This document shows positions 1,748 to 33,056 of a stretch of 43,513 nt of DNA, in pieces. The DNA lies in contig MHXZ01000074.1 in the NCBI GenBank assembly GCA_001825665.1, positions 1 through 43,513 of the forward strand, in the 5' to 3' direction. The notes under the pieces were generated by a model. That model saw only the letters and a program-made list of their open reading frames with translations. It ran no database searches and was not told where the DNA came from. The stretch's first letter is position 1. Each line of letters starts with the position of its first letter. A program made the translations under genes and the position numbers. Source of the DNA: Planctomycetes bacterium GWF2_41_51. GTDB lineage: Bacteria; Planctomycetota; Phycisphaerae; Sedimentisphaerales; UBA12454.

Positions 1748-1776
1748 TTGACGTGTCAAAGGCATTTTGATAATAT
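1748..1776 (+). promoter_or_regulatory. Predicted sigma70 promoter of the PEP-CTERM gene
   Basis: TTGACG (1748-1753), a 17-bp spacer, then TAATAT (1771-1776) make a near-consensus housekeeping promoter. The LacI-type palindrome begins at the last base of the -10 box, so a bound repressor would block initiation. Transcription would start near 1783 and leave a leader of about 220 nt. Confidence 0.75.
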
Positions 1777-1795
1777 TAAGTAAACGTTTACTTAA
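1776..1795. promoter_or_regulatory. LacI-family operator, perfect 20-bp palindrome
   Basis: TTAAGTAAACGTTTACTTAA is a perfect inverted repeat with the central CG step that LacI/PurR/CcpA-type regulators bend through their hinge helices. Its core AGTAAACGTTTACT recurs exactly in front of the LacI-family gene at 17909-17922, and with one change at 17687-17700 in front of the xylanase operon. It overlaps the predicted start site of the PEP-CTERM transcript, consistent with repression. Confidence 0.8.
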
Positions 1796-2002
1796 GTTCT
1801 TTGAAGATTGAAGAAAAGTTAAACAGCGGGGTTTTGATAAGTCCGCCAAACGGGAGGAGGACAAATCATTTCCCACGACAATAATTAATGTATAAGACAT
1901 TCTCCAAATGCAGTCAGAGTTTGGCGTATGTTAAGAACGAGTATAATTGTTTGTTGTAATATTAACAAAGAAGTTCCTTATTAATTTAGGGAGGAGTTGA
2001 TT
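1784..2002 (+). promoter_or_regulatory. Long 5' leader of the PEP-CTERM gene with a long-range stem
   Basis: The predicted transcript has about 220 nt before the ATG at 2003. CGCCAAAC (1844-1851) can pair perfectly with GTTTGGCG (1919-1926) over 8 bp, enclosing a ribosome-site-like GGGAGGAGG (1852-1860) that is not followed by a start codon at usable distance. The real ribosome site is GGGAGGAG (about 1989-1996). I do not recognise a known riboswitch here. Confidence 0.35.
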
Positions 2003-2653
2003 ATGAAAAAGTTTATTTTATGTCTTACAATTTTAGCAGCGTTGAATACAGCAGCATTGGCAGATGTAATGTTAGGAAGCTGGGAAGGTGTAACAGATGG
2101 ATGGATAGATTGGTCTGGAAGTCATCCTTCAATCGGCGACGCGACAATGATGCCGTCAAAGTATCAGTATGCGACAATCGGCGCAACAGCCGGTTCACAG
2201 AGTCTGCGTTTGATAAAAGACGGCTGGAACCAGAACCTGGCACTCGGGATGGATTACAACCAGAGAGTCGCATTTATGGCAAATACCAAATTTGCGATTG
2301 ATGTAACAGTTCCGGCTGATATTGCAGGCGATGGAGCAAACGACGGCTATGCACAAATTTACAATGTAACTATCAATGCCGAAGGTTATGGATGGCACGA
2401 TCAGTTTACATCAGTTCCCCTGAATTTCTATTTCTGGGATGGCTCAGGAGAGCGTACAGCTACACTGGAAATAGATTACAGCGCAATCAAGTCATCGATG
2501 CCGGCTATACCAGGGTATATCGAAATAATTATTGCGACTAATTCATCAACAGGCCGTGGAAATTTCTATTTCGATAACGCAAGATTAATTCCAGAACCGG
2601 TAACACTTGCTCTGCTCGGTCTTGGTCTGACGCTGCTCAGGAAGAGAAGCTAA
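2003..2653 (+). CDS. PEP-CTERM sorted, secreted, probably carbohydrate-binding protein
   Basis: A 216-residue exported protein. It has an N-terminal signal peptide (KKFILCLTILAALNTAALA, then cut before DVML) and a C-terminal PEP-CTERM sorting tail: IPEPVTLALLGLGLTLLRKR, meaning a Pro-Glu-Pro box, a hydrophobic helix and a basic end. This signal is normally processed by an exosortase; none is encoded in the window. The middle, rich in Trp, Tyr and Gly with a final FYFDNARL strand, looks like a beta-sandwich of carbohydrate-binding-module type, but no specific family is certain. ATG 2003 is chosen over an in-frame TTG at 1997 because GGGAGGAG sits 6 nt upstream of it. The LacI-type operator at 1776-1795 places it in the same regulon as the xylanases, so xylan binding at the cell surface is a reasonable inference. 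Confidence 0.8.
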   Translation: MKKFILCLTILAALNTAALADVMLGSWEGVTDGWIDWSGSHPSIGDATMMPSKYQYATIGATAGSQSLRLIKDGWNQNLALGMDYNQRVAFMANTKFAIDVTVPADIAGDGANDGYAQIYNVTINAEGYGWHDQFTSVPLNFYFWDGSGERTATLEIDYSAIKSSMPAIPGYIEIIIATNSSTGRGNFYFDNARLIPEPVTLALLGLGLTLLRKRS

Positions 2654-5062: not shown

Positions 5063-6643
5063 TTATAATTCTTTATATTCGAAGTAGTCGAAATCGGCGT
5101 TGAGCTTTGTGCCGGAAATATCCTGACAGCAAATCGCGGCGAAAGCGCCGGTAAAACAACCCTGTTTGCAATATTCATCGGACAATCTTGTCGCATCGAG
5201 AACCGGGCCTATTTCTTCGAAATTCCTGTCATCGAGACTGTATGAGAACTGCAATTTGCCATAATCGAAATCGCCTCGTAAAATGATTCGCTTGCTGTCA
5301 AATGCAATTTCTTCAGATAGTTCATCATATTTATTATTGTCGGCGGCGATAATGCCGAGATGTTTGCCGAGAGTTTCATCGCGGCTTACGCGGAGGTAAA
5401 AATAATTCTGCGAATCGTAGAAGAAAGTCAAACCGGCCATCTGCTGGAAATGTTTCGGTTCGAATTCAAGGCAGGTTGTTACCTGACATTTGAAGGATTG
5501 AAGTCTTCTGCCGAGGAGGCTTTGATAATGATTTGATGCGAGAGATTCTCTGCCTTTCAAACGAAGGAAGCCTTTACGCTCTTTTAAAGTCAGCCAACTT
5601 TCATCTGCGGGCAGTCTTAATGTTGCATAATGAACGCAGAGAGTTTCGGAGTCGAAATCATCGCGGGATGGCTGGGGTTTGAATTTATGCTCCGGCAGGC
5701 CGGGGGCATCGATATCTACTTTGGGAGTGTTGCCGCCCTGGATGCGAAGCCAGCCATCATCTGTCCAGAAACATTTTTGAATTGCGGTTTCTCTGCCGAG
5801 AACGCAGCGGCGTTTCGGTTCGGTATTAGCCGGCAGAGGTCTGCCGCAAAGATGAACCATATACCACTGGTCATTTTGAGTTTGGACGATTGAAGCGTGG
5901 CCGGCCCTTTGAAGAGGAAGCTGCGGATTGAAACGGCTTGTTAAAATTGGATTAGTCGGGTCAACCTCGTAAGGGCCATCGATATTTTTTGCGCGAGCTA
6001 TGGTTACGAGATGATCATATTCTGTCCCGCCTTCGGCCGTTAACAAATAGTACCAGCCGTTAACTTTATAAAGATGCGGGCCTTCGGTAAGTTTGAAATT
6101 TGTTCCCTTGAAAATATTTTTAACCGGGCCTGTGAGCTTTTGCAGTTTGGGGTCGTATTCCTGCAGGAGGATTCCTGAAAATGGATTATGGCCTTTGCGG
6201 TGATCCCATTGCATATTCACGAACCATTTTCTGCCGTCGTCATCGTGAAAGAGTGAAGGGTCAAAGCCGGAAGAATTAAGATATATCGGCTCAGACCATG
6301 GGCCCATTATGTCTTTTGCGGTTACCAGATAATTATGGCAGTCCTTGAAGTTGCTGTTGTAAACTCGCGTGTTGGTGTAAATCAAATAGAAAAAATCATC
6401 GCAGAAACTAAGGCAGGGCGCCCATATACCGCAGGAGGGCAGATTGCCGGTCATATCGAGCTGACTGACGCGCGTGATTGGGTGCGTGAGCAGACGCCAA
6501 TTGACGAGGTCTCTGGAATGGTGAATTTGCACCGCGGGGAACCATTCGAAGGTGCTGGTTGCGATATAATAATCATCGCCGACGCGCAGAATCGACGGGT
6601 CAGGATTGAAGCCGGGTAATATTGGGTTGTGTATTTTGTCCAT
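5063..6643 (-). CDS. GH43 beta-xylosidase / alpha-L-arabinofuranosidase, cytoplasmic
   Basis: A 526-residue inverting glycosidase, last gene of the minus-strand xylanase operon. The five-bladed propeller covers about residues 1-310. The three catalytic acids are in their family contexts: Asp15 (GFNPDPSI, general base), Asp128 (GFDPSLF, pKa modulator) and Glu187 (LTEGPHLY, general acid). A concanavalin-like C-terminal domain (about 330-526) is typical of GH43 subfamilies 11/12, in which it helps form the xylosidase active site. There is no signal peptide, so it should act on imported xylo-oligosaccharides in the cytoplasm. AGAAGG lies 4 nt before the ATG. It follows the URO-D-like gene after 47 bases. 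Beta-xylosidase is the first choice; arabinofuranosidase or dual activity is possible. Confidence 0.88.
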   Translation of the reverse strand: MDKIHNPILPGFNPDPSILRVGDDYYIATSTFEWFPAVQIHHSRDLVNWRLLTHPITRVSQLDMTGNLPSCGIWAPCLSFCDDFFYLIYTNTRVYNSNFKDCHNYLVTAKDIMGPWSEPIYLNSSGFDPSLFHDDDGRKWFVNMQWDHRKGHNPFSGILLQEYDPKLQKLTGPVKNIFKGTNFKLTEGPHLYKVNGWYYLLTAEGGTEYDHLVTIARAKNIDGPYEVDPTNPILTSRFNPQLPLQRAGHASIVQTQNDQWYMVHLCGRPLPANTEPKRRCVLGRETAIQKCFWTDDGWLRIQGGNTPKVDIDAPGLPEHKFKPQPSRDDFDSETLCVHYATLRLPADESWLTLKERKGFLRLKGRESLASNHYQSLLGRRLQSFKCQVTTCLEFEPKHFQQMAGLTFFYDSQNYFYLRVSRDETLGKHLGIIAADNNKYDELSEEIAFDSKRIILRGDFDYGKLQFSYSLDDRNFEEIGPVLDATRLSDEYCKQGCFTGAFAAICCQDISGTKLNADFDYFEYKEL

Positions 6644-6690
6644 TTTGCCTTCTCTTAAAACTAATATGTTATAGTGTTAATTCTTTCAAT

Positions 6691-7683
6691 TCAACAAAAA
6701 TTGTTTCGTTTGCCGTATTTAATAAATTCGTCAGAAGCTATTTCCTGCCATTTCGGTTCGAGACCGATTGCGACATTGTCGGAATAGAAGCCTGCGATAA
6801 AGCCGCCTTTTCCTTTCCAGAGTTTGTCGAGCATTTCACGGACTTTTTGGCGGATAATTTTTTCATCGCGCAATTGCAGCGTTTTCTGAATATCGACAGG
6901 ACACCAGAAAGTAATCTTGTCGCTGTTCTGGTGCGCGGCGAGATTGTCTATGCCGTGAAGGTCGGGCTGGTCGAATTGCAGGACGTCAACGCCGGCTTTA
7001 ATCAGGCCGGGGACGATTGCGCCGATTTTACCGCAGGAATGCATAAAGACTTTTATTCCACACTGGTGCGCGATGCCGAAAAGTTTTTGAAATCGCGGGA
7101 AAAATTCTTCATACCATAATTCAGGATTGATGAATATCTGACTTTGAGTGCCCCAGTCTTCCGGATACATTACGCAGTCGGCACCGGCTTTGGCGTGATT
7201 GCGAATCATATCTTCGAGCAGGATATCGATGCGGTCGTGAAGCATTTTGATTTTTTCTCTTTCGAGAACGAGAGCCATTAAATAATTATCGATTTTGAAA
7301 AGTTTACGAGCGATATTAAAGGCAAAGCCGGGCATTCCGCCGATAATCCATTTATCTTTATTTTCCTGTCTTGCCCTTCCGACGGTTTGGAAGTCTTCAA
7401 ATTTTGAAAAATCTGGAAGCTCGTAGTTTTCGATTTCTGAAACATCATTCAAGACGCCTTTAACGACCTCGCCTTTTGTGGTGTCATCAAGTCTCTGCCA
7501 GATATTGCCCCATTCATCGATACGCTCCCATTTTGTGGGACTGACTTTTTGCCAGTCTGTTGCGCGGGTTTTTGCGCTGTCGTTGACCCAAAGAAAATCC
7601 GATTCCGGGAAGGAATGCGCGACTCGCTCGGGATTAGTAAAGTCCAAAGTTCTTTGAACGATTTCTTTCGATGTCATTGCCAT
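6691..7683 (-). CDS. URO-D / cobalamin-dependent methyltransferase superfamily protein
   Basis: About 330 residues with the TIM-barrel fold of uroporphyrinogen decarboxylases and of MtaA/MtbA-type methylcobamide methyltransferases. It opens with TSKEIVQRTLDFTNPERVAHSFPES, the style of the non-haem members found in catabolic loci. HSCG (His215, Cys217) matches the start of the zinc motif H-x-C of methyltransferases. The next cysteine (Cys261) is only 44 residues further, closer than in MtaA, so a complete zinc site is not proven. An upstream ATG (7695) overlaps the ABC stop as ATGA, but AAAGG at 7692-7688 favours ATG 7683. No haem-biosynthesis gene is nearby. Lying between an ABC exporter and a GH43 in a glucuronoxylan operon, it could act on a methylated sugar; this is a guess, and true substrate and activity are unknown. 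Confidence 0.75.
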   Translation of the reverse strand: MAMTSKEIVQRTLDFTNPERVAHSFPESDFLWVNDSAKTRATDWQKVSPTKWERIDEWGNIWQRLDDTTKGEVVKGVLNDVSEIENYELPDFSKFEDFQTVGRARQENKDKWIIGGMPGFAFNIARKLFKIDNYLMALVLEREKIKMLHDRIDILLEDMIRNHAKAGADCVMYPEDWGTQSQIFINPELWYEEFFPRFQKLFGIAHQCGIKVFMHSCGKIGAIVPGLIKAGVDVLQFDQPDLHGIDNLAAHQNSDKITFWCPVDIQKTLQLRDEKIIRQKVREMLDKLWKGKGGFIAGFYSDNVAIGLEPKWQEIASDEFIKYGKRNNFC

Positions 7684-7691
7684 AATACCTT

Positions 7692-9515
7692 TCAAATTGC
7701 ATAAACATTATGCATGTCGTAATAAATACCTTTTTTATTGAGCAGTTCTTCGTGAGTACCGGTTTCAATTATATTCTTATTCGCGAGTACGATTATCCTG
7801 TCGCATTTTTGAATAGTACTTAAACGGTGCGCGATAATGAAAGCAGTCCTATTCTCAAGCATTTTATCGATGCTCTGCTGGATGAGCTTTTCGGTGACTG
7901 AATCTACCGAGCTTGTCGCCTCATCGAGAATGACAATCGCAGGATTTTTCAGGAAGACACGGGCAATCGCGAGTCTCTGCTTTTGTCCGCCGCTGAGTTT
8001 GACGCCTCTTTCGCCTACGAGGGTATCGAATTTGTCCGGCAATTCCTGAATGGTGTTGTAAATATTTGCCATAGTACAGGCGTTTATCATTTCTTCTTCG
8101 GTTTTGCCGGGGTTTGCAAAGAGCAAATTATCACGGATTGTGCCATAGAACAAAAATGTTTCCTGAAAGACGATGCCGATGTTCTGGCGGAGAGAGGTTT
8201 GCGTGAAATCCCTGATGTCTCTGCCGTCGATTTCGATTGAGCCGGTGCTGGGGTCGTAAAAGCGGGGCAGAAGCGAGAGAAGAGTTGTTTTGCCGCTGCC
8301 TGTTGGACCGACGACGGCGATTTTTTCGCCTGCTATTACATCGAGATTTATGCTGTCGAGAACCGGTGCCCTGCCGTATGAGAATTTTACATTTTTAAAG
8401 CTGACATTGCCTTTGACGGAATCTTTTTCGAGTTTTGCAGCGCCGGGTTTGTCTTTGATATCGGGAACGATTTTAAGGAAATCGACAATTCTCTCAAGGC
8501 CGACCATACCATCCTGGAAAAGATTCATTACATTCATAATGCCGCCGATGGAGCCGTATAAATAATTTGAGAGCATCAGGAAAAGGGTAATTGTGCCGAG
8601 CGTTACTGAGCCGATTTTGTAGAACATAAGAATACCGCCGATGACGGCAATCTGCATTCTGCCCCAATCCATAGTGCCATAGCTGAGCTGATGATTGAAG
8701 CTGAAAACCCGCATAATCTCGTTTTGGACATCATAGAACTGGCGGTTCACGGTGCGGTAAACTTCGCTGGAATGGTCTTCGAGGCTGAACGCTTTTATTT
8801 CTTTTATTCCGCTGATTGTTTCCTGTAATTGCGAGGTTATCTGGGATTGATGGCTGCGCTGTTTGCGGTAAAGCGGTTTCAATTTTGTTCTGATTGCGTA
8901 AAAAGCGTAAGCGAGCACCGGCATCGGAAGCATTGCGATAATCGAAAGAAGCGGTGAAATGAAAAACATTATCACCGGAACCAGAAGCAAATGAATCGAA
9001 ACATAAACGAGATGGAAACTGTTGCGAAGCATAAGGCTGAGATTGTTTATATCGCTTACGGTTTTTGTCAGGATATCGCCGACACGTGCGGAATTGAAAT
9101 ACGCCAGTGACAGTTTGTTGATGTGATCCTGCAATTTTAGTTTGATAGAATAGATTACAAGCTCGACACTGCGCGTGGCCTTGCGATGCATAGCGACTCC
9201 GACGCAGTTTGCCAAAAAAATGAGAACGGCCATAATTGCAATAAAAACGAGCGAGAAGACGGTTTTCTCGAAAGCAGTTGAACCGGCTTTGAGCCAGAAT
9301 ATATTCGCATCATTTGCAATCAGGACGTGGTCGATGTAATACTTTATGCCAATAGCGGGAAGCAGATTAAGCGCAGAGTTGAGGAAGAACAGGAAATAGA
9401 CCGTGCTCAGGGGCTTTTTATAAGGTTTCAGAAAAAGCCAAAAATGCTTCATATATTCAGTTTTTTTGTTTTGACCGGCAGAAAACTGCTCGCCGGTTTC
9501 TTTTACATTTTTCAT
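7692..9515 (-). CDS. ABC exporter half-transporter (MsbA/MdlB-like), membrane domain fused to ATPase
   Basis: A 607-residue type I ABC exporter subunit that probably works as a homodimer in the inner membrane. Residues about 25-340 carry six hydrophobic helices; 370-607 form the nucleotide-binding domain. Walker A is GPTGSGKTT with Lys409, the signature is LSGGQ at 507-511 followed by the Walker B segment IVILDEAT, and the switch His is in FIIAHRLST. The gene overlaps the GH30 gene upstream by 4 bases (ATGA) and abuts the URO-D-like gene downstream, so it is clearly translationally coupled within the xylanase operon. A multidrug/lipid-type exporter inside a xylan operon is unusual; the sugar importer of this locus is encoded separately at 23175-26403. 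Cargo is unknown: glycolipid, peptide or oligosaccharide are possible. Confidence 0.9.
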   Translation of the reverse strand: MKNVKETGEQFSAGQNKKTEYMKHFWLFLKPYKKPLSTVYFLFFLNSALNLLPAIGIKYYIDHVLIANDANIFWLKAGSTAFEKTVFSLVFIAIMAVLIFLANCVGVAMHRKATRSVELVIYSIKLKLQDHINKLSLAYFNSARVGDILTKTVSDINNLSLMLRNSFHLVYVSIHLLLVPVIMFFISPLLSIIAMLPMPVLAYAFYAIRTKLKPLYRKQRSHQSQITSQLQETISGIKEIKAFSLEDHSSEVYRTVNRQFYDVQNEIMRVFSFNHQLSYGTMDWGRMQIAVIGGILMFYKIGSVTLGTITLFLMLSNYLYGSIGGIMNVMNLFQDGMVGLERIVDFLKIVPDIKDKPGAAKLEKDSVKGNVSFKNVKFSYGRAPVLDSINLDVIAGEKIAVVGPTGSGKTTLLSLLPRFYDPSTGSIEIDGRDIRDFTQTSLRQNIGIVFQETFLFYGTIRDNLLFANPGKTEEEMINACTMANIYNTIQELPDKFDTLVGERGVKLSGGQKQRLAIARVFLKNPAIVILDEATSSVDSVTEKLIQQSIDKMLENRTAFIIAHRLSTIQKCDRIIVLANKNIIETGTHEELLNKKGIYYDMHNVYAI

Positions 9516-11311
9516 TGGTTAACCAGCGCAATGGTTGTAATCGAATTCTTCGGCAAAATCAATGGTTTGTTATTGCTGTAATTTTCCGTGTGAACGCAAT
9601 TTTCAGTTTGACTTGTTCTGTAAATTTTACCAGTTTCAAAATTATTAATTTCACAAGCAAGCGAAATATTTATATCTGACGTGTTTATAATTATAACACT
9701 GAGATTATGATTGTTGGGGCTGATGAAAGCGGACATTCGCAAAGCGGGAGAATCTGTAGATGCTTCAATACGCTGCCAGTCTGGGTCGGTGAAGGCAGAG
9801 TAATGTTTCATCGCGTAATAGACGGGGTTGATGGTGAATGTTGTGGGGGTGGTGCTGATAAGGCCTAAAGGAGCTTCCCAGATTATCTGCCAATAGATGA
9901 AAGCAGATGTACTTTCGATGACCATAGAATTGTGTATGAATTGCGCAAGCGACATCGCTGCTTCAAAAGATGTAACATCGCCGCCGCTGCTTTCTTTTGC
10001 AAATTCGGTCTGCATACGCGGTTTATCATTATAATCGGCTGCAAAGCGTGCCATCGGACGAATGAAGCTGTCGGGGACATCCTCGCTGCCATCGCCATAG
10101 AGATGATGAGCATAAGCGTAGATGTGAGATTTGTCTTCTGCGGTCAGGGCGTCTATATATCTGCGAGTTGTGAGAATGTTTTTGCCTTCGGGAGCGAGAA
10201 TTTTCGGGGGATTAGGCAGTTTGGAAATTTTATTATAAAAAGCTCGGAAAGCTTTATCGTAACCGGCATTGTTTTCGTTTTCATTCGGGTCGAAACGGCA
10301 AGTGTCCCAGCTTGTTAAATAATCAGGTTCATTTTGCATACTGATATAATCGATTTTAATGCCGTGCTTTTCGTAATCTGCAAAGCTGTTGAGCCACCAT
10401 TGCGCGAAAGCATCGTATTTGTATTTTCCGTCGGCATCTTTAGCGAGAGTGCCGCCTTTGGTGTTATTATTGCTTTTGAGATATTTCGGCGGCGACCATG
10501 ATGAAACCATAATTTTCAAAGGTTTTGGGGAATATTGATTTGCGACTGTGATAAATTTAACCGCTCTGTCAATGTAGTTGCTATCATAGCCATTATAGTC
10601 ATAAGTATTCCGGATTCTTAAAATATCAAGGCCGAGTTCTTTGAAAAGAACGGTGTAGAAATTTGGTCTGTCTGTAAAACCTGCGAGAGTTCGGTCGTAC
10701 CATGCGCCGGCGGCGCCGAAGCCTTCAATTTTCTGGCGACGAATGTCAGGAGAAATTTTTGCAGAAGCCTGCGGTTTTATCTCGACAGAAATGGCTGCGG
10801 CAGGAGGACCAATAACTTCTACATCATCAACAAAGAAGTTTGTTCCCGGCGGGGGGCCTTCAAAATAAATATCGAGAAGGCTCGGCTCGCCCTGGGCCTG
10901 AAAGGTAAAAGTGCCGGTTAGCTGAACCCACTGGGTATTGTTGGCTTGTGCAGAAACAATATTTGTATATGATACTCCGCTGGCATCGTGCTTTTCGATG
11001 GAAATTGTAACGGGAGCGGCGAGTGTGTTTTCGAGTTTGACCCATGCGGAAATGCTGTAAGTTTTTTCAATTATTACTTTGTCGATGATGGGCTGTTTAA
11101 TTCCATGCCATGTCATAGTTCTGTTTGAAGATTTGCCGCTTGCGGAGCCTGTATGTTTTTGTTCGGATGACTGCGTAAATACTCCGCCGCGGGAAGACCA
11201 GCCGCCTGTTTCTTCAAAGCCGGGATTAACGAGAACATTGATATCGGCAAAGCAGAACGATAGATTAAAAACGCACACAGCACAGACTAAATAAAGATTT
11301 TTTGCGGTCAT
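9512..11311 (-). CDS. Secreted GH30-family xylanase with N-terminal CBM22-like module (copy A)
   Basis: 599 residues. A signal peptide ends at FCFA (about residue 22). Residues about 25-170 form a CBM4/9/22-type beta-sandwich (NPGFEETGGW, TWHGIKQ, VDDVEVIGPP). The GH30-type barrel starts at KIEGFGAAGAWY (about 190) and contains the acid/base Glu328 in SMQNEPDY and the nucleophile Glu436 in MQTEFAK. A short beta-domain ending KNSITTIAL closes the protein. GH30 enzymes of this kind cut glucuronoxylan, arabinoxylan or xylan ends; the subfamily is not certain. AAGGAG precedes ATG 11311 by six bases, and the preceding gene stops one base upstream. It lacks the dockerin-like tail of its paralogue at 15603-17654. 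The three GH30 copies of this operon look like tandem duplicates. Confidence 0.88.
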   Translation of the reverse strand: MTAKNLYLVCAVCVFNLSFCFADINVLVNPGFEETGGWSSRGGVFTQSSEQKHTGSASGKSSNRTMTWHGIKQPIIDKVIIEKTYSISAWVKLENTLAAPVTISIEKHDASGVSYTNIVSAQANNTQWVQLTGTFTFQAQGEPSLLDIYFEGPPPGTNFFVDDVEVIGPPAAAISVEIKPQASAKISPDIRRQKIEGFGAAGAWYDRTLAGFTDRPNFYTVLFKELGLDILRIRNTYDYNGYDSNYIDRAVKFITVANQYSPKPLKIMVSSWSPPKYLKSNNNTKGGTLAKDADGKYKYDAFAQWWLNSFADYEKHGIKIDYISMQNEPDYLTSWDTCRFDPNENENNAGYDKAFRAFYNKISKLPNPPKILAPEGKNILTTRRYIDALTAEDKSHIYAYAHHLYGDGSEDVPDSFIRPMARFAADYNDKPRMQTEFAKESSGGDVTSFEAAMSLAQFIHNSMVIESTSAFIYWQIIWEAPLGLISTTPTTFTINPVYYAMKHYSAFTDPDWQRIEASTDSPALRMSAFISPNNHNLSVIIINTSDINISLACEINNFETGKIYRTSQTENCVHTENYSNNKPLILPKNSITTIALVNQ

Positions 11312-11312
11312 T

Positions 11313-13121
11313 TTATTCTCCTTTTAATAAATTCCCTTTAATCGCGATTGTCGTAATCGAATCTTTGACGACAATCAAAGGTTTATCATTTTTATAATTT
11401 CCCACGAGTTCACAATTTTCGGTTTTGGATGTGCGGTAAATTTCGCCGGCAGAAATCTCGAAAGCAGCAGAAGCAAGCGAAAGCGAAATATCTGTGTCAG
11501 ATGATGTGTTTATAATTACAACGCTGACATTTTTTTTGTCGGGACTTTGAAAAGCGGTTATCCGCAAAGCGGGTGAATCAGTTTGTGCTTCGATTCGCTG
11601 CCAGTTTTGATCTATAAAAGCGGAGAATTGTTTGAACGCATAATAAGTCGGATTGATTCTGTAACCTTCGCTGCCGATTGGTTCGCTTAGAGTAATCAAA
11701 CCGCCGCCGATTTTACCTTTGCGGTAAAGACTCCAATAAGAATACGAGGCGAGATTTTCATACACGAGGCAATTGTGAATGTGACGCGCGGTGAAAACGG
11801 CATCGTTGAAATCGGGATTGCGAGAATATTCGGTCTGAAAGAACGGCTTGCCGTCATATTTTTCGGCGTACTTTTTTAATGAAGCAACGTAAGCTTCGGG
11901 GTGGTCGTATCCGCCTGCGCCATCGCTGTATAAATGATGTGTCCATGCGTAAACGTGATTTGTGTCGATGATAGCGTCAATATACCGGCGTGAATTACCG
12001 AAACCCATCGTTTCGGGCGCGAGAAGTTTAGGTCTTTTATCGCCGAACTCGAAATTCAATTTTTGGTAAACTGTTTCCAATGCAAGATTATAGCTTGCCC
12101 AATTGGCGTCTTCGGCGGGTAAGAATTTACAGGAAGCGTAAGCTGTTTCGATGTCGGGTTCGTTTTGAATGCTGAGATAATCTACTGTTACGCCGCGGGC
12201 GGTGAGGTCTTTGACGCTGTCTATCCACCAATCGGAGAATTCGTCGTACATATATTTGCCGGCGGAATTCTTTTTTAATGTGCCTGCGGTTGTGTGGTCG
12301 GTGCTTTTGAGATAAGCAGGCGGCGACCATGAGGCAACCATCACTTTAATTGGTTTTGAGAGTATTTTATTTGCACCGTTGATAATTTCAACACTATCAT
12401 CAACATAATGTTCATTGATTGCGTGCAGGTTTTGAATTCTGTAAATCTCAAGACATAAATCAGCGAACATCAATTTATACAGTTCATTTTTTTTAGGATG
12501 AGCGACGAGCCAGTTAGGGTCGTAACCGCCGGCGGCACCGAAACCTTCAAACATCTGAAAACGCTGCGAAGCATCAATTTTGCCTGTTGAGTTTGTATCG
12601 AGCGGTTTTGGCGGCGGGGCGGGAGGACCAAAGACATTTACATCATCAATATAGAAATTTACTCCGGCGGCAGGACCTTCGAAATAAACATCCAATGTGC
12701 CAAGCTCGCCTTTATAATTTAGAATAAAATCGCCTGTGAGCTTCGTCCAGTTTTTATTGTTGGCAATGCCTTTAGCGACATTAATATAAGTCGAATCTTC
12801 GCTGTCGGCCTGAGCGATTGTAATCTGAATATTATTGCTGTCTGAATTTTGGAGTTTGACCCAGCCGGATATGCGGTATTTTTTACCAATTTCCATTTTG
12901 CTGAGCAGCGATTGTTTAATTCCCTGCCATGTGTCTATTCGCGCAAATGCTTTGGCGGATTTAGAGCCGGTGTATTTTTCGTTTGCATCAACAGCGATAG
13001 AACATCCACGACCTGACCAGCCGGAAGTTCCATCCTCCAAGCCGGGGTTCGTCAGCAAATTGGTATCCGCAAAACACGGTGCTGCCAGTAAAACTAATAT
13101 GTAAACTTTTCTAATGAACAT
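11313..13121 (-). CDS. Secreted GH30-family xylanase with N-terminal CBM22-like module (copy B)
   Basis: 602 residues with the same architecture as its neighbour: signal peptide to PCFA (about residue 18), CBM22-like domain (NPGLEDGTSGWSGRG, DTWQGIKQ, DDVNVFGPP), then the GH30 barrel from MFEGFGAAGGYD (about 190). The acid/base is Glu321 in SIQNEPDI and the nucleophile Glu431 in FQTEYSRN. After the GFGAA motif it reads GGYDPN where the other two copies have AWYD or GWYE, and the loop before the barrel end differs (RKGKIGGGLITLSEPIG), suggesting altered substrate subsites. Its ribosome site overlaps the end of the GH10 gene, whose stop is 7 bases upstream. There is no dockerin-like tail. Xylan is the likely substrate; the exact linkage or decoration is not deducible. 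Confidence 0.87.
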   Translation of the reverse strand: MFIRKVYILVLLAAPCFADTNLLTNPGLEDGTSGWSGRGCSIAVDANEKYTGSKSAKAFARIDTWQGIKQSLLSKMEIGKKYRISGWVKLQNSDSNNIQITIAQADSEDSTYINVAKGIANNKNWTKLTGDFILNYKGELGTLDVYFEGPAAGVNFYIDDVNVFGPPAPPPKPLDTNSTGKIDASQRFQMFEGFGAAGGYDPNWLVAHPKKNELYKLMFADLCLEIYRIQNLHAINEHYVDDSVEIINGANKILSKPIKVMVASWSPPAYLKSTDHTTAGTLKKNSAGKYMYDEFSDWWIDSVKDLTARGVTVDYLSIQNEPDIETAYASCKFLPAEDANWASYNLALETVYQKLNFEFGDKRPKLLAPETMGFGNSRRYIDAIIDTNHVYAWTHHLYSDGAGGYDHPEAYVASLKKYAEKYDGKPFFQTEYSRNPDFNDAVFTARHIHNCLVYENLASYSYWSLYRKGKIGGGLITLSEPIGSEGYRINPTYYAFKQFSAFIDQNWQRIEAQTDSPALRITAFQSPDKKNVSVVIINTSSDTDISLSLASAAFEISAGEIYRTSKTENCELVGNYKNDKPLIVVKDSITTIAIKGNLLKGE

Positions 13122-13128
13122 CTATCCT

Positions 13129-15582
13129 TTACCAATTCGATGTACAGCCTACTCCCTGCGGGTCATTACAGTTCATCCACTGCTGCGCGAATTCGCCGAA
13201 ATCCTGAAAATCAACAGTACCATCTATCGGTTCAAAATCAGCGCCATTGCAATTATTAATTAACGCACAATCTTCATTGAGCCAGTAATCTGAAATAATA
13301 TGAAGGTCTTTAAAATTAACGTAACAGTCACCGCTTAAATCGGATATTAAAGCAAGACCGCCATTTTGAACGTCTGTGCAATCATCATAAGTTATCAAAG
13401 CAGCTCTTATTACAACTCCTATAATTCCCTGTGAAGAAGACGATGAGAAAGTCGCGTTTGGTGTAATTGCCGTGCCAATACTTAATTTGTGGCCTGCTAC
13501 GCCAGTTGCGTACCAATAACCGCCAAACTGCTGGTCGATGCCTTCAGTGAAACCATTGTTTAATGTGTATGATCCCGCGGCTCCGCCTGTCACAGCGATA
13601 ATAACCATATCTCCCTGATCGTTTAGAAGTGGAACTGTGGAAATTGAGGTACCAGAGGGAATACTGTTTCCGGCAGTGGCACCAATGGGAGAAGCCTGAT
13701 TAACGTTTGTGAAAAACGCACTTGAATATGAATAGCTGCCCCATGTGGAAGTCCAGGTCGGACTAAAATTTGTTGCAATTGCAGAGGCGATGTCAGCTTC
13801 TTTGAGAATGAAAACTGCGGTTTGATAGCCAAATGAAGAGCCTGTGTCAACTTCAAGAACCTTTGTCATCATTTTTCCGCCGTAACTGACCGAAGTAATA
13901 TCTCCGGCGCCCCAGGATAATCCATGCGCTACAAATACGAGAATACGATTTTCGCCAGTTTCTTTTGCGTGATTAAGCCCCGTTATCCATGAACCGAGAA
14001 GTCCTACATTTGCTCCCGGAGACATAGTTCTTGCAGATGCGGGCACTGAAAAATCCGTTTCATTCGGATACAGCGCATTATCGCGAGCCTTAACTCTGAA
14101 AGTATATAATGTACTCGGAGACAGGCCGGTAGCTAAGTATGTCGTGCCGAATTCCCATGTGCTGCTTTTTGTCGGGTCATTCGTACATTCGAATAAATAC
14201 TGACAGGGCATAGATTCGTCTGTCGCAGTTGTCGCCGTCATAGTGATTGAAGATTGACTAACAGCCGCAGGCGGAGAGACGAAAGTCATCGGGTTGGGAG
14301 CGGGTTTGACGTATTCCGGCTCGGGAGCGTACAGGTTTGTTTCAATTTCCAACTGAAGAGTTGTTGTGCCGGGAGCCAATTCAATAACATAAGTTTCATC
14401 CGGCTGACCGGCAGCACTGAGAGTTATTTCATAAATACCGTGGAAGCCTCTGAAGTTTGCATCTCCATTTATGCCGGTAGTATCGGTTGCCTCTGTTGTC
14501 CATTCATCCATAAGTGCCTGATATCTTAGTCCTGCGGCATTTACAGACCAGTCTGAATCGACAAGTCCTTCCCATCGCCATGCAGAAGGACCATAAAAGC
14601 CCCACATAATAATACCTTCAACAGAAGCATGGCTAAAGCATATACGATAAAATTTTTCAAGCTCATCCGCACGCAGATTTTCGTCTGCCTGCGGGACATC
14701 AAATTCTGTAATCCAAATCGGGAGGCCGACAGCGGCTAAAGGCTGAAGTACACTATTATAATAAGTCTGAGGATTGAAACCGCTATTAATATGTCCCTGT
14801 ATGCCGAGAGCGTCAATCGGTGCGCCCTGGCTAATTAAGCCGTTTGCACGGCTCGCATAGGTCCAGCCGTCATAGCTGCCGAAGGAATTGCCTGTGTATT
14901 CATTAAGGAATAATTTGCAATTTGGGTCGACGGTTCGAGCACGCTGATACATGTGAACTCTTCCGCCGTCGCCGAGACGGTCATAGAATCTATAATCTGA
15001 ACCGGATGGCAGCATTTCATTGTCAACGTCCCAATGTAAAAACTTGTTTTTGAAATGATTTACGGCGCTGTCGATGCGTTCATCAACTTCTGTCAATAAT
15101 TCGCTTGATGCGGGATATGCCGCGTAAGGCAAATCCTTTACCCATTGCTGAATATAGGTCAGTTGTTCCCAAAAAAGGGTATGACCTCGCATCGGTATTT
15201 CATTGGTATTGCACCAATTATAAATATAATCACCCTGCGAATAGTTTTCTGAATCCCTTGTATTTTCATTGGAAGCCCATTTGGTTTCGTTTTCGCAAAC
15301 AGCCCAATTAAAATTTTCCAGAATGAAATTTCTGTAATTTGCATAATTAACGAGGTTGGAATATGAAATGCAGGTCCCGAAAGCGAAATGCTGTTTTAGC
15401 TGATTGATCTCAACATCAATGCCTCCGACCGGCTGGCCAAGAGAATCAACTATTGTAATTTCGAGATTCCTTTTACGAATGTTTTCAATTCTTGCATTCG
15501 CATCACTTTTCCAATCCGCATAACAAAAAGATGAAATGAAAATAATAGCAAAAAAACTATTCTTTAATTTTTTAGAAAACAT
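13129..15582 (-). CDS. Secreted multidomain GH10 endo-1,4-beta-xylanase with FnIII, unknown module and dockerin-like tail
   Basis: 817 residues. A signal peptide ends at CYA (about 22). The GH10 catalytic domain (about 30-365) begins with an insert-like strand pair and has the acid/base Glu189 in WDVDNEM and the nucleophile Glu293 in WITEFDVP. Residues 370-415 form the small beta-unit (GFHGIYEITL) often found after GH10 domains; 425-520 is fibronectin type III-like (LSPSTLYTFRVKARD). Residues about 522-727 are an Ala/Gly/Ser-rich beta module (ITSVSYGGKMM; GVVIRAAL) that I cannot assign. The last 70 residues are a two-loop EF-hand/dockerin-like domain (DLSGDCYVNFKDL; ADFEPIDGTVDFQDF) ending in SNW. 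AGGAGG gives a perfect ribosome site 5 nt before ATG 15582. It probably cuts the xylan backbone at the cell surface or in the periplasm. Confidence 0.92.
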   Translation of the reverse strand: MFSKKLKNSFFAIIFISSFCYADWKSDANARIENIRKRNLEITIVDSLGQPVGGIDVEINQLKQHFAFGTCISYSNLVNYANYRNFILENFNWAVCENETKWASNENTRDSENYSQGDYIYNWCNTNEIPMRGHTLFWEQLTYIQQWVKDLPYAAYPASSELLTEVDERIDSAVNHFKNKFLHWDVDNEMLPSGSDYRFYDRLGDGGRVHMYQRARTVDPNCKLFLNEYTGNSFGSYDGWTYASRANGLISQGAPIDALGIQGHINSGFNPQTYYNSVLQPLAAVGLPIWITEFDVPQADENLRADELEKFYRICFSHASVEGIIMWGFYGPSAWRWEGLVDSDWSVNAAGLRYQALMDEWTTEATDTTGINGDANFRGFHGIYEITLSAAGQPDETYVIELAPGTTTLQLEIETNLYAPEPEYVKPAPNPMTFVSPPAAVSQSSITMTATTATDESMPCQYLFECTNDPTKSSTWEFGTTYLATGLSPSTLYTFRVKARDNALYPNETDFSVPASARTMSPGANVGLLGSWITGLNHAKETGENRILVFVAHGLSWGAGDITSVSYGGKMMTKVLEVDTGSSFGYQTAVFILKEADIASAIATNFSPTWTSTWGSYSYSSAFFTNVNQASPIGATAGNSIPSGTSISTVPLLNDQGDMVIIAVTGGAAGSYTLNNGFTEGIDQQFGGYWYATGVAGHKLSIGTAITPNATFSSSSSQGIIGVVIRAALITYDDCTDVQNGGLALISDLSGDCYVNFKDLHIISDYWLNEDCALINNCNGADFEPIDGTVDFQDFGEFAQQWMNCNDPQGVGCTSNW

Positions 15583-15602
15583 TTATCCTCCTATTTTTTT
15601 GA

Positions 15603-17654
15603 TTACCAGTTCTGCATACAATCTGAATCCTCGGGGTCATTGCATTGCATCCATTGAATTGCAAAGTCGCTAAAATCAGAGAAATCGACCATGCCGTCGG
15701 TTGGCTCAAAATCTGCACCATTGCAATTATTAATGGTATCGCAATCACTTCTAAGCCAGTATTCAGAGATGACAGAAAGGTCTTCGTAATCGACCCGGCA
15801 GTCGCCATTTAAATCTGAAAGCAGAGTGTAGCCGAAACTTTGTACTTGTGTGCAATTTTGCGGTATGAGAGAGCCATTAAGTGCAATTGTGGTTATAGAA
15901 TTTTTCGGGAGAAGAACTGAATCTATGTAACTGCCGAGGAGAACGCAATTTTCAGTGGAGCTTGAACGGTAAACGCTGCCGGATGAAACTTCGAAATTAC
16001 CGAAAGAATTGAAAGTCAGAGTAATATCAGAGTCATTGGAAATATTTATCAGTATTATAGATAGCTGATTATTTTCGGGATTTATGAATGAGCTCATCCT
16101 CAATGCAGAGGTGTTACTCGATGCTGCGACACGCTGCCAGTTCGGGTCTGTAAAATATGAAAAATGTTTAAAAGCATAATAAACAGGATTGATCGTATAG
16201 TTAGGAGTTGTAAGGCTTATAAGTCCTGACGGAGAGGCCCAGAATAAATCCCAATAAAGATAAGCGGAAACATTCTCAACGGTTAAACAATTATTCATCA
16301 GCATCGCAAGATTCATCGCGTTTGCCCATGTGTTGACGGGGGAACCTGAAAATTCAGTTTGAAATACAGGCTTGTCGCTGTAGAGATTTTTGAATGTGGT
16401 CATTGCTGAAATAAGCTGGTCGGGATTATCGGCACTGCCATCATAAAGATGATGCGCATAACCGTAAATATTAGATTTGTCCGTTGTATTAAGTGCATTT
16501 AGATAGCTTGCGGTACCGCCTAAACTTGCGCTTTCGGGCGCGAGAAGTTTTGGAGGATTAGGCATTGTATTTAGATTTGCGTAAAGGGCGGCAAAACCCT
16601 GTTTATAGCCTGCACGAGTTGAATTTTCAGTCGGATCCCATAGACAGGTATGCCAATCTGCCGACCATTGCGGTTCATTTTGCATATTTAAATAGTATGT
16701 ATTAACGCCGGCATTCGACCATGCAGTTAAACTGTCGCGCCACCATTGCGCAAATTGAGTATATTTATAATTGCCATTAGCGTCTTTGATTAAAGTACCG
16801 CCATTTTCAAAATCGTTATTGCTTTTCAGATAAGCAGGCGGCCCCCATGATGAATTCATGACTCTGATTGGATGGCCGAGAGAAGTCCGGGCGGCGGCAA
16901 TGATTGTTGCCGAACGTGTAATATATCCATTGTCTATATCATAAGTATTGCGAACGCGATATATATCAAGGCCTAAATCACGGAACATTGTATTATATAG
17001 GTTTGTTCTTATTGTCGATGAATAGTTTAAAACGCTCTGTTCGTACCATCCGCCTGCTGCACCGAAACCTTCTAAAATCTGGTAACGTGTATCTATATTA
17101 ATAGAAGCAGCAGCGTCAAATCCCTGCGATGGGTCGGGGCCGTAAACATTTGCATCATCGACATAGATATCGACGCCTGAATTCGGCCCTTCGAAATAGA
17201 CATATAATTCTGTTAGGGGACCGTTTGCGGTTAAATTGTAATTATTTGAAAGATAAATCCAGCCGGTGTTGTTTGCTGTGCCTGTTGCTACGTTAGCATA
17301 AGTAGTAACGCCATCAACCTTTTTTTGAACGGTTATCTTCACGGTTCCGCTCGATGCGCTTATTCTTAATCTCGCCGAGATTTGATAAGTAGAGCCTATG
17401 ATCATTTTATTCAGCATGTCCTGCTGTATGCCATTCCATGTTGCGGTTCTATTATAAGCTCTGCCGCTTTGTGAGCCGTTGTAAACGGGAGAAGAAACTG
17501 CAGAAATAGAACAGCTTCGGCTTGTCCATCCAGTGGTGCCGCTTTCAAAGCCGGGATTTGTCAGAATGTTAATATTCGCAGCAAAGACATTGGTTATAAA
17601 TAGAAGCGCAAAAGGAATAAATGGTAATTGCGGATATTTAAATTTTATTATCAT
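15603..17654 (-). CDS. Secreted GH30-family xylanase with CBM22-like module and dockerin-like tail (copy C)
   Basis: 683 residues, first gene of the minus-strand operon. A signal peptide ends at NVFA (about 25). The CBM22-like domain follows (NPGFESGTTGWTSRSCS, TWNGIQQ, DDANVYGP), then the GH30 barrel from ILEGFGAAGGWYE. The acid/base is Glu327 in NMQNEPQW and the nucleophile Glu434 in FQTEFSG. Unlike copies A and B it continues after KNSITTIAL into a two-loop calcium-binding dockerin-like domain (about 612-683: DLNGDCRVDYEDL; ADFEPTDGMVDFSDF) that ends in QNW. AGGAG lies 9 nt before ATG 17654. A promoter and a one-mismatch LacI-type operator lie within 90 bases upstream. Probably endo- or exo-acting on decorated xylan; subfamily uncertain. 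Confidence 0.9.
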   Translation of the reverse strand: MIIKFKYPQLPFIPFALLFITNVFAANINILTNPGFESGTTGWTSRSCSISAVSSPVYNGSQSGRAYNRTATWNGIQQDMLNKMIIGSTYQISARLRISASSGTVKITVQKKVDGVTTYANVATGTANNTGWIYLSNNYNLTANGPLTELYVYFEGPNSGVDIYVDDANVYGPDPSQGFDAAASINIDTRYQILEGFGAAGGWYEQSVLNYSSTIRTNLYNTMFRDLGLDIYRVRNTYDIDNGYITRSATIIAAARTSLGHPIRVMNSSWGPPAYLKSNNDFENGGTLIKDANGNYKYTQFAQWWRDSLTAWSNAGVNTYYLNMQNEPQWSADWHTCLWDPTENSTRAGYKQGFAALYANLNTMPNPPKLLAPESASLGGTASYLNALNTTDKSNIYGYAHHLYDGSADNPDQLISAMTTFKNLYSDKPVFQTEFSGSPVNTWANAMNLAMLMNNCLTVENVSAYLYWDLFWASPSGLISLTTPNYTINPVYYAFKHFSYFTDPNWQRVAASSNTSALRMSSFINPENNQLSIILINISNDSDITLTFNSFGNFEVSSGSVYRSSSTENCVLLGSYIDSVLLPKNSITTIALNGSLIPQNCTQVQSFGYTLLSDLNGDCRVDYEDLSVISEYWLRSDCDTINNCNGADFEPTDGMVDFSDFSDFAIQWMQCNDPEDSDCMQNW

Positions 17655-17686: not shown

Positions 17687-17700
17687 AGTAAACGATTACT
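17687..17700. promoter_or_regulatory. LacI-type operator of the xylanase operon
   Basis: AGTAAACGATTACT differs from the perfect core AGTAAACGTTTACT at one position. It lies just downstream of the minus-strand -10 box at 17711-17716, at about +4 to +17, where bound repressor would block the operon that starts with the GH30 gene. Confidence 0.75.
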
Positions 17701-17908: not shown

Positions 17909-17922
17909 AGTAAACGTTTACT
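17909..17922. promoter_or_regulatory. LacI-type operator, perfect 14-bp palindrome, autoregulatory
   Basis: AGTAAACGTTTACT is a perfect palindrome located 54 bases before the GTG start of the LacI-family gene and directly after its promoter. With the site at 17687-17700, 222 bp away centre to centre, it would allow a tetrameric or looped repressor to shut both divergent transcripts. Confidence 0.8.
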
Positions 17923-17976: not shown

Positions 17977-19002
17977 GTGGCTGAGAATAACACAGTACCA
18001 ACGGTGAAAGAGGTTGCAGCGCACTGCGGCGTAAGTGAGGCTACTGTAAGCAGGGTCTTAAACGGCAATTATAAGAACGGCTTTTCAGTAAGGCAGGAGT
18101 TGCGACAGAAAATAACCCAGGTGGCGGATGCCTTGGGTTACAGACCTAATCTTGCGGCAAAGAATTTAGTTCGACGTCAAACCAAAATGATAGCAATACT
18201 GGGCTGCGACACAGTGCTTGGCTGGCCCGGGAACATTTACCAAACAATTATAAATGCCAGTGTTCGTGCGCTGCATATCAGAGGGTACGATGTATGCATT
18301 ACAATTCCAAATCTTGAAAAAAGTAATACAGAGCTGCCATCGTGGAGAGTAGATGGCGCTATAGTAATGCAGGAATGTTCCGAGCAAACAGTAGAAGCGA
18401 TGGAAAAATCAGGATTGCCGTACGTAGTAATTAATGGTGTTGCCGGGCCAAACGGCTCGATAATAATTCCTGATGATATCGATGCAACAAGACGAGCGTT
18501 AAATCATTTGATAGATATGGGCCATCGCAGGATCGCATACGCAGGACCGACATCCAGCCATAAAGAGCATCGCAGTATTGTTGACCGCCATGATACGTAT
18601 GTGTCCGAACTTACCGAGCACGGGCTTGAGCCGATAAGCGGTCATAATACAGTATTCCGTTCAGCACCGGCGTTTTTAGCTTCAACAGTGTTAAAAAATC
18701 AGGCAACAGCTATTCTTGCGTATGACCATGTGGAAGCGATAAAAATCATTCACGCGGCACATACGCTGGATATTCAGATTCCCAAACAGGTAAGCCTGGT
18801 GTGTTTCAACGATGAATATTTATGTGATGTTGTAACGCCGGCGCTGACTACGATTGGAGTTCCGCTTCGAAGAATGGGCAGAATCGCAGCACAGACATTG
18901 CTAAGCCAAATTGACTCGCCTCAAAGTTATTCTCCGCAATGTATAAGACTATCACAGGACTTGATAATACGGGCATCGACAGCGCAACCATTTAAGAGGT
19001 AA
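17977..19002 (+). CDS. LacI-family transcriptional regulator, probable xylan-regulon repressor
   Basis: A 341-residue regulator. Residues 8-30 form the helix-turn-helix (TVKEVAAHCGVSEATVSRVLNG) and about 45-62 the hinge (YRPNLAAKNLVRRQT), with a Leu available to insert into the central CG step of the operator. Residues 65-335 are the periplasmic-binding-protein-like effector domain (MIAILGCD, GHRRIAYAGP, LVCFNDE). The start is GTG 17977, preceded by GGAG at a 5-nt spacing. The gene sits between two classes of xylanolytic genes, and the same palindrome lies before itself, the divergent operon and the distant PEP-CTERM gene. The inducer is likely a xylo-oligosaccharide or xylose, by inference from context only. 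A degenerate half-site near 22181 was not counted. Confidence 0.9.
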   Translation: MAENNTVPTVKEVAAHCGVSEATVSRVLNGNYKNGFSVRQELRQKITQVADALGYRPNLAAKNLVRRQTKMIAILGCDTVLGWPGNIYQTIINASVRALHIRGYDVCITIPNLEKSNTELPSWRVDGAIVMQECSEQTVEAMEKSGLPYVVINGVAGPNGSIIIPDDIDATRRALNHLIDMGHRRIAYAGPTSSHKEHRSIVDRHDTYVSELTEHGLEPISGHNTVFRSAPAFLASTVLKNQATAILAYDHVEAIKIIHAAHTLDIQIPKQVSLVCFNDEYLCDVVTPALTTIGVPLRRMGRIAAQTLLSQIDSPQSYSPQCIRLSQDLIIRASTAQPFKR

Positions 19003-19083
19003 AAAAATGTTGATTGTATTAAATGAAAGCGAAGTAAAGTGAGTAGAGGAAAAAGTAAAAGAAATTTTATAGGAGGTATCAAG

Positions 19084-20304
19084 ATGAAAAAGAAATTGCT
19101 AATTGTTATTTTATTATGTTTAGGTATCGGCACAGCCTATGCTGATGAGGTGATAAATATTGACCTCAACAATTATGGGAATGCTACGCCATATACAGGA
19201 ACCGCTGTTGTTGATGATGGCATCAATCGGTGGAATGTTTATTATGGAAGCTGGGGGCTGCCGATGGGTTCGCCTCGCAGTGCTAATCTGGCGGGTTCTA
19301 CTGAACCATGTCAGCCGAGTACTTATGCGGCACAGGTTTGGATTGGCGATCCCGGTGTTGACCATAATTATGTTACCGGAGCCGGAGACGGATTGATGGA
19401 TGACGGATTTATTAATAATCCAGCGATTGCAGGAGATCCAAATATACGGTTATGGGGCCGAGATGCTTACGGCGGAACATTTGATGTCTATGTTTATGGC
19501 AGTGAGACAGGAAGTTTCACGTTGACAAGAGGCGGTGTTGTAATCGGTACGAAAACTGTAACAGGCGGAATAACTGCCGGTCAGTTTGTCGAAGGCGGAA
19601 ATTATGTTGTATTTCCGGCTGTTAATATTTCGAATGATCCAGATTTTCTACTTATTAAATATTCAAACATTATAAACGGTATTCAGCTTGTAAAACAAAA
19701 AGACCCAATCGCATTACAGAACGGAACTGAATTCGGATTTGCAGACTACGATGTCGCATTCGAGACAAATGGAAGAGGCGAAGATGATCAGCCATTCGGT
19801 CCTGATCTTATCGGGCCAGACGACTGGAGCCCTTACGGGTACATCAGTTACCTGGATAGTGGCGAATATATGGAATATGATTTCACAATGGATGAATTAA
19901 ATGAAGGTGAATACAATGTTTATGTTATAGTTGATGTTCTGGAATATGACGCAAACAACATGGATTTGTATATAAACGATTTGTTCCTTGGTACAGCAAA
20001 AGCTCCTTATTCAGGCGGATTAGAACTGGCGCAAACGGCACCACTTACAGTAAATATTTTTGGCGGTTCTGATGTTCAAACTTTCAAATGGGAAATGTCT
20101 GCTCTTTATTATCATAATGCTGCATATTTCCGATTCGAACGAATTGGGCCAATTAATATGCCGGATTGTGATGCAGTTTACAGATATGGATTTGAATATG
20201 CGGGTGATTTTAACAGGGATTGCAAGATTGATTTTAAAGACCTCGATATGATGACAGAACAGTGGCTTAGCTGCATAGACCCTAATGAAAATAATTGTCC
20301 GTAA
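19084..20304 (+). CDS. Secreted protein with CBM6/35-like region and dockerin-like tail
   Basis: 406 residues. ATG 19084 is used because a perfect AGGAGGT lies 6 nt upstream (19071-19077); an in-frame GTG at 19039 would put extra residues before the signal peptide. The signal peptide (KKKLLIVILLCLGIGTAYA) precedes a beta-rich region with no sure family (INIDLNNYGNATPYTGTAVV). Residues about 220-360 resemble CBM6/CBM35-type domains (EFGFADYDVAFETNG, GYISYLDSGEYMEYDF, FKWEMSALYYHNAAYFRFERI). The C-terminus has one EF-hand/dockerin-like loop, DFNRDCKIDFKDLDMMTEQW. No catalytic motif is visible. Position directly after the LacI-family gene and before an ABC sugar importer suggests a non-catalytic xylan-binding or scaffolding protein. 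Confidence 0.75.
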   Translation: MKKKLLIVILLCLGIGTAYADEVINIDLNNYGNATPYTGTAVVDDGINRWNVYYGSWGLPMGSPRSANLAGSTEPCQPSTYAAQVWIGDPGVDHNYVTGAGDGLMDDGFINNPAIAGDPNIRLWGRDAYGGTFDVYVYGSETGSFTLTRGGVVIGTKTVTGGITAGQFVEGGNYVVFPAVNISNDPDFLLIKYSNIINGIQLVKQKDPIALQNGTEFGFADYDVAFETNGRGEDDQPFGPDLIGPDDWSPYGYISYLDSGEYMEYDFTMDELNEGEYNVYVIVDVLEYDANNMDLYINDLFLGTAKAPYSGGLELAQTAPLTVNIFGGSDVQTFKWEMSALYYHNAAYFRFERIGPINMPDCDAVYRYGFEYAGDFNRDCKIDFKDLDMMTEQWLSCIDPNENNCP

Positions 20305-20365
20305 GTATTGAATAAGGATTGATAGCAAAATGAAAGAATTAATGAAGATATAAGGAGAAGGTGCA

Positions 20366-22111: not shown

Positions 22112-22129
22112 TATTAAATAATATTGACG

Positions 22130-22154
22130 GCGGCTGGGTTCGCTTCCCGGCCGC
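22130..22154 (+). other. GC-rich hairpin between the LamG protein and the pseudopilin
   Basis: GCGGCTGGG (22130-22138) pairs with CCCGGCCGC (22146-22154) over 9 bp with one U-G wobble and a 7-nt loop. It is not followed by a T-run, so it may protect the 3' end of the upstream message or cause partial termination, leaving secreted proteins more abundant than the importer. Confidence 0.5.
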
Positions 22155-22246
22155 TGTATTGCGGGTTTAATGCCAGAGCAAGTAAACTCGATTATGTAAT
22201 GCGTATAGAAAACGGCAGAAGTTAATTTTATTCTCGGAGTATAGTG

Positions 22247-23083: not shown

Positions 23084-23127
23084 ATCTGTAATAGTTTTTC
23101 ATAATAAAATATGTTAAAATAGGGGAG

Positions 23128-23146
23128 AGCTTAAAATAATTAAGCT
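23128..23146. other. Short AT-rich hairpin before the binding-protein gene
   Basis: AGCTTAA (23128-23134) and TTAAGCT (23140-23146) form a perfect 7-bp stem with a 5-base loop, 28 bases before ATG 23175. No T-run follows. It could be a regulator half-site pair or a transcript-processing hairpin. Confidence 0.35.
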
Positions 23147-23174
23147 GAAATTATGACATTGGAGTGTTGTTTAA

Positions 23175-26403: not shown

Positions 26404-26409
26404 ATAACC

Positions 26410-31967: not shown

Positions 31968-31982
31968 AACAAGGAGCAAGAA

Positions 31983-32984: not shown

Positions 32985-32992
32985 TCAGGCAT

Positions 32993-33021
32993 TTGCATTA
33001 AGTTTTTGATTGTGATATAAT
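32993..33021 (+). promoter_or_regulatory. Predicted internal promoter of the sugar-importer ATPase gene
   Basis: TTGCAT (32993-32998), a 17-bp spacer and a perfect TATAAT (33016-33021) preceded by TG (33013-33014) form a strong extended -10 promoter, 36 bases before the ATPase start. No LacI-type palindrome is near it, so the ATPase could be made without xylan induction. Confidence 0.7.
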
Positions 33022-33056
33022 CATCTGCCGGAAGTTTTTAATAAGGATGTGTAGTT

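Follow-up and report, generated by a model that had tools for sequence, protein, structure and literature searches.

How could a solitary gene for a putative surface protein, located 16 kb from a LacI-family regulator gene, with a GH35-like gene on one side and an oxidoreductase gene on the other, come under the control of that regulator? The question is raised by the window analysed here, which is the whole stretch of 43,513 nucleotides. The initial annotation had claimed a perfect palindrome fused to a near-consensus promoter in front of an exported PEP-CTERM protein, and all of these elements are present. Positions 1776-1795 read TTAAGTAAACGTTTACTTAA, a 20-bp sequence identical to its own reverse complement, which we predict to be a LacI-type operator (no strand assigned) from the palindrome itself, a genome search and its conservation. 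A sigma-70-like promoter motif occupies 1748-1776 of the plus strand, with TTGACG starting at 1748, a spacer of 17 bp and TAATAT ending at 1776, immediately 5' of the palindrome; the operator is thus expected to overlap the transcription start. TTGACG and TTTGATAATATT are identical in front of the orthologous gene of G008, a genome of the same genus. The palindrome lies 208 bp before the ATG at 2003. Further upstream, a block at 1605-1640 (TCAGTAATATTNAGGATGATAATACTACATAATTT) is nearly identical in G008, above the rest of the intergenic region.

The gene itself (2003-2653, plus strand) encodes a protein of 216 amino acids with a signal-peptide-like N-terminus, as judged by inspection, and a C-terminal PEP-CTERM sorting tag. 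The tag is recognised by TIGR02595 (17.6 bits, cut-off 16), the Pfam model PF07589 giving 15.2 bits, below its threshold of 20.7; orthologs were found in G008, G037 and G039, and those of G008 and G039 exceed the Pfam PEP-CTERM cut-off. The C-terminal tail IPEPVTLALLGLGLTLLRKRS contains the PEP motif, the hydrophobic stretch and the basic end, and the genome carries two exosortase genes (PF09721, 180.6 and 166.8 bits). One of these two exosortases probably directs the protein to the cell envelope, a step of which we are less confident than of the protein's place in the regulon. By its arrangement the gene appears to be transcribed alone; at about 2787-2833 the eye makes out an inverted repeat with a T run after it, where the scanner reported no terminator.

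The distribution of the palindrome is the main argument for linking this gene to the regulator. Its 14-bp core, AGTAAACGTTTACT, is found exactly at 1779 and 17909 and with one mismatch at 17687 in the window, and the whole 4.83-Mb genome has exactly these two exact sites, and 17687 as its sole one-mismatch site. Ten further sites have two mismatches, several of them inside genes. Zero-order base composition predicts about 0.04 exact copies per genome, and a control pattern, the core read backwards, matched once exactly and 60 times when up to two mismatches were allowed. The site at 17909-17922 precedes the lacI gene and is predicted to serve autoregulation, as two exact copies also stand before lacI orthologs; the one at 17687-17700 is a predicted one-mismatch operator of a divergent xylanase operon (GH30-like/GH10). 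The earlier observation that, apart from the PEP-CTERM site, the core is confined to the vicinity of the LacI gene can therefore be extended to the entire genome, with the divergent operon as an addition, and the palindrome is not spread before many unrelated genes.

The regulator gene (17977-19002, plus strand) encodes a LacI-family protein with the recognition helix SEATVSRVLN, in which both the helix-turn-helix (PF00356, 51.7 bits) and the sugar-binding domain (PF13377, 104.1 bits) were matched, one of 23 LacI-family matches in the genome. The locus shows what is expected of a LacI regulon: an even CG-centred palindrome at promoters, a site of the autoregulation type, and a site kept before orthologous genes. 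Searching for lacI orthologs in 161 genomes of the order, we found two exact copies of AGTAAACGTTTACT before the own lacI gene in nine of them (G148, G105, G124, G127-G132) and one-mismatch forms in G126, G037 and G039a. Elsewhere in the ortholog genomes, core sites stand before genes for secreted CBM4_9/GH30-like or GH10 enzymes and for a polysaccharide deacetylase. With this co-occurrence across families, the pairing of regulator and operator rests on more than one locus. An operator of the AGTAAACGTTTACT type is absent before three related lacI genes, the C29 paralog of the same genome (71% identical in product), G008_C174 and G039b, all of which have the helix SQATVSRVLN. G037 and G039a likewise read SQ, yet retain AGTAAACGATTACT before lacI, so the SQ/SE residue alone is not decisive.

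Conservation at the PEP-CTERM gene itself points in the same direction. G008 is syntenic over a contig of 10.4 kb, with neighbouring genes 83-89% identical; its operator matches in 19 of 20 bases (95%) with an exact core, and its promoter is 82% identical, while two short intergenic stretches nearby reach 41-50% with gaps counted. This contig stops short of the lacI position, and the LacI protein found in G008 groups with the C29 paralog in one clade. In two genomes of another family the PEP-CTERM orthologs, with protein cores 36-40% identical to that of the window protein, stand behind operators that differ from ours by one or two changes: AGTAAACGATTACT in G039, 293 bp before the start of the gene, and AGTAAGCGTTTACT in G037, 5.6 kb from lacI. 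No PEP-CTERM gene was found behind the inspected core sites in ten other-family genomes besides G037 and G039, so the link between regulator and PEP-CTERM protein is not universal.

Taken from the letters of the DNA, the palindrome at 1776-1795 is, with a probability of about 0.85, an operator of the 17977 regulator, and the PEP-CTERM gene a member of its regulon. The regulon membership proposed in the initial annotation is thereby strengthened by the uniqueness of the site in the genome, by the co-occurrence of regulator and operator across the order, and by an operator that is kept before the orthologs of three other genomes, which belong to two families; the label "xylan-binding" given to the protein is unsupported, because no carbohydrate-binding domain was detected. 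Pfam revealed no carbohydrate-binding module in the 216-residue protein at E-values up to 10, and no other known domain was found besides the tail. Profile alignment (hhalign) with the CBM4_9 domains of the window gave a probability of 0.2%, and the PDB sequence search returned chance matches for the single protein and a tail-only match for its profile. A structure model predicted without an alignment had a pLDDT of 36 and was unusable for judging the fold. The core is only about 34% identical between the window gene (2003-2653) and its syntenic G008 counterpart (L077:1501-2139), which gives no clear sign of a narrow, conserved function. Compared with the conserved neighbours, leader, operator and C-terminal tail, the coding core of this gene is unusually fast-evolving.

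The other targets of the regulon are of the xylanase type (GH10, GH30-like, GH43, GH39, CBM60). On the minus strand (5063-17654) a set of genes, assumed to form one transcript, comprises by Pfam three GH30-like genes with CBM4_9, GH10, an ABC transporter, a URO-D-like gene and GH43. Downstream of lacI on the plus strand (19039-34172) there are two secreted proteins, one of them LamG-like, a pseudopilin-like protein, a sugar ABC transporter, GH2 with CBM60, GH39 and GH10. Judged by the Pfam families on both sides of lacI, the locus is of the xylan type. The URO-D/methylcobamide methyltransferase-like gene lies at 6691-7695 within the xylan gene set; elsewhere, a gene that follows the C31 lacI gene behind the C31 operator (L229:17853-18500) appears related to it by eye, the fragment of it that was scanned having no Pfam match. 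A search among viral contigs and plasmids yielded no relatives.

Operator, promoter, their conservation and their uniqueness in the genome can be read directly; from them we infer how the system may work. In the absence of inducer, a dimer of the 17977 product would cover the transcription start of three promoters, one serving lacI with the genes downstream of it, one the divergent xylanase operon and one the single PEP-CTERM gene. As the enzymes of the regulon are of the xylanase type, the inducer is probably a xylo-oligosaccharide. On xylan all three promoters would be released, and the PEP-CTERM-tagged protein would therefore be made together with xylanases and a sugar importer. The leader hairpin described below would then act on the mRNA after transcription. 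At the envelope, the protein would help to keep polysaccharide or enzyme on the cell surface; this part in glycan capture is less certain than its membership in the regulon.

The predicted untranslated leader, of about 207 nt (1796-2002, plus strand), is also conserved in its larger part: in the G008 comparison 1796-1840 is 49% and 1841-2002 is 78% identical. A first possible hairpin (TGAT-AA-GTCC ... GGAC-AA-ATCA, 1834-1869, plus strand) is found in G000 and G008 only. Another, at 1892-1936 of the plus strand with the loop GCAGTCAGA, has six members in five genomes, the leaders of the C74, G008, G037, G039, C5 and G007 genes; they share the loop GCRRUCAGA, all six precede PEP-CTERM genes behind LacI-type operators, and their stems vary in sequence yet are still predicted to fold. 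An Rfam scan of 1600-2100 had no match up to an E-value of 5. We considered the leader as a widespread riboswitch and rejected this: model R1 matched only the window (C74) and G008 well, and model R2 gave six strong members in 161 genomes in a search that scored 39 candidates per genome, so that weak members may be missed. The six weaker matches of R2 have no exported PEP-CTERM gene downstream and are read as chance. Our best guess is that the hairpin probably acts after transcription, on mRNA stability or translation. The leaders of C14-type and C31 PEP-CTERM genes (L228, L115, L118, L229) likewise form predicted hairpins, but their loop is not the GCRRUCAGA one.

Is this wiring peculiar to one locus? 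We scanned a region around each of the 23 lacI matches, in most cases of no more than 20 kb, and found intergenic CG-centred palindromes shared within the region at seven loci (C74, the one described here, C5, C14, C31, C32, C13 and C82). The shared pairs are centred on CG in 13 cases, compared with two on GC, one on TA and none on AT. A PEP-CTERM gene is a target in four of the seven loci, each time with an operator of its own: AGTAAACGTTTACT in C74, AGCAARCGKTTGCT in C5 and also in G007, AGCAACCGGTTGTT in C14 and also in G008 and G011, and GTGTACGTACAC in C31, where the PEP-CTERM gene is 13 kb from lacI. The C14 target is linked to a lacI gene about 4 kb away by proximity only. Only palindromes shared with another promoter of the region were counted, because lone ones before PEP-CTERM genes occur, by a rough estimate, at about chance frequency. 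The binomial probability of at least four PEP-CTERM targets is 0.0002-0.002, given our own estimates that 1.5-3% of genes encode PEP-CTERM proteins and that there are about 19 targets. We also considered whether PEP-CTERM genes are enriched near lacI in general; the counts were not compelling, and we make no such claim. We tentatively suggest, at odds somewhat short of even, that LacI-controlled polysaccharide loci of this planctomycete lineage commonly include a PEP-CTERM surface protein under their own repressor, a subset of them with an undescribed leader hairpin of the GCRRUCAGA type, and that exosortase sorting is a standard part of glycan foraging. In four genomes of the family (L013, L177, L178, L180), a palindrome resembling AATAAACGTTTACT stands 17-32 bp ahead of the reading frame of flagellin-like genes.

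Another reader of the palindrome at 1776-1795 may be imagined among the 23 LacI-family matches, and the 71%-identical C29 product would be the first candidate, which would place the PEP-CTERM gene in another regulon. The two helices have one difference (SQ instead of SE), and as the SQ-type genomes G037 and G039a keep a near-identical operator, cross-binding is conceivable; the C29 promoter, however, has no AGTAAACGTTTACT-type operator, and every genome site with at most one mismatch is in the 17977 locus, which makes this explanation improbable. A slimmer chance still is left to a palindrome kept for some other reason than LacI control, as a stem at the 5' end of the mRNA or by coincidence. 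The transcript could have its start within this sequence, and mRNAs can be protected by a terminal stem, but the same core recurs in front of lacI genes throughout the order, and an even palindrome centred on CG is the typical site of this family (PMC4052901).

Control by the 17977 regulator is thus the reading we prefer, and a further alternative concerns the role of the protein rather than its regulation. The gene may well belong to the regulon while its product serves exopolysaccharide or biofilm formation during xylan use, with no part in glycan capture. The classical link of PEP-CTERM proteins to exopolysaccharide (PMC1569441) and the lack of a carbohydrate-binding match in the window protein both speak for this, and we give it serious weight, clearly below even. 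A PEP-CTERM target in each of four LacI loci, on the other hand, is more easily reconciled with roles tied to particular substrates than with a single, general role in biofilms.

Both parts of the system are of known kinds. Local sugar regulons of LacI-family proteins were described by Ravcheev et al. 2014 (PMC4052901), and ours resembles them in being autoregulated through an even CG-centred palindrome and in its local transporter and glycoside hydrolase targets, and differs in that one target is a PEP-CTERM protein; the main text of that work mentions neither xylan nor planctomycetes. With the PEP-CTERM/EpsH exosortase system (Haft et al. 2006, PMC1569441) it shares the signal peptide, the PEP tail, an exosortase in the genome and a gene that stands alone after a long intergenic stretch. 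Most PEP-CTERM genes of Proteobacteria carry a common sigma-54 motif that is matched to PrsK/PrsR (PMC1569441), unlike the window gene, which has a sigma-70-like promoter with a LacI-type operator and no GG-N10-GC motif (-24 GG/-12 GC) in 1579-2002, so sigma-54/PrsK/PrsR control does not appear to apply to it. The XynR/XylR xylan regulons of Caldicellulosiruptorales, as far as the part of PMC12285236 considered describes them, are similar in placing xylan-use genes under transcription factors; they come from unrelated organisms and are likened here by description, not by sequence. CAZyme clusters in Planctomycetota had not been functionally characterised to the knowledge of the authors of PMC11131199. 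In the open-access literature searched, mostly titles and the beginnings of abstracts, no paper was found to connect PEP-CTERM genes with either LacI control or xylan use, and in that literature the combination of LacI control with a PEP-CTERM protein appears new.

For many PEP-CTERM proteins no role is known, and the system as such has been connected with exopolysaccharide. If substrate-specific repressors act on their genes, single PEP-CTERM proteins could be assigned to single polysaccharides, and their function would therefore become testable by growth on a named sugar; the same wiring in other sugar-use regulons suggests that the tagged proteins belong to polysaccharide eating in this lineage. 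Polysaccharide utilization loci of Bacteroidota encode surface proteins that are co-regulated with enzymes and transport. The putative surface protein described here would be co-regulated with enzymes and transport as well, the difference being that no SusC/SusD-type gene is among the Pfam-scanned genes, and that an ABC importer, dockerin-like tails and the PEP-CTERM protein are found in their place. If the wider suggestion is true, exosortase-sorted proteins would correspond to what surface glycan-binding proteins are in Bacteroidota.
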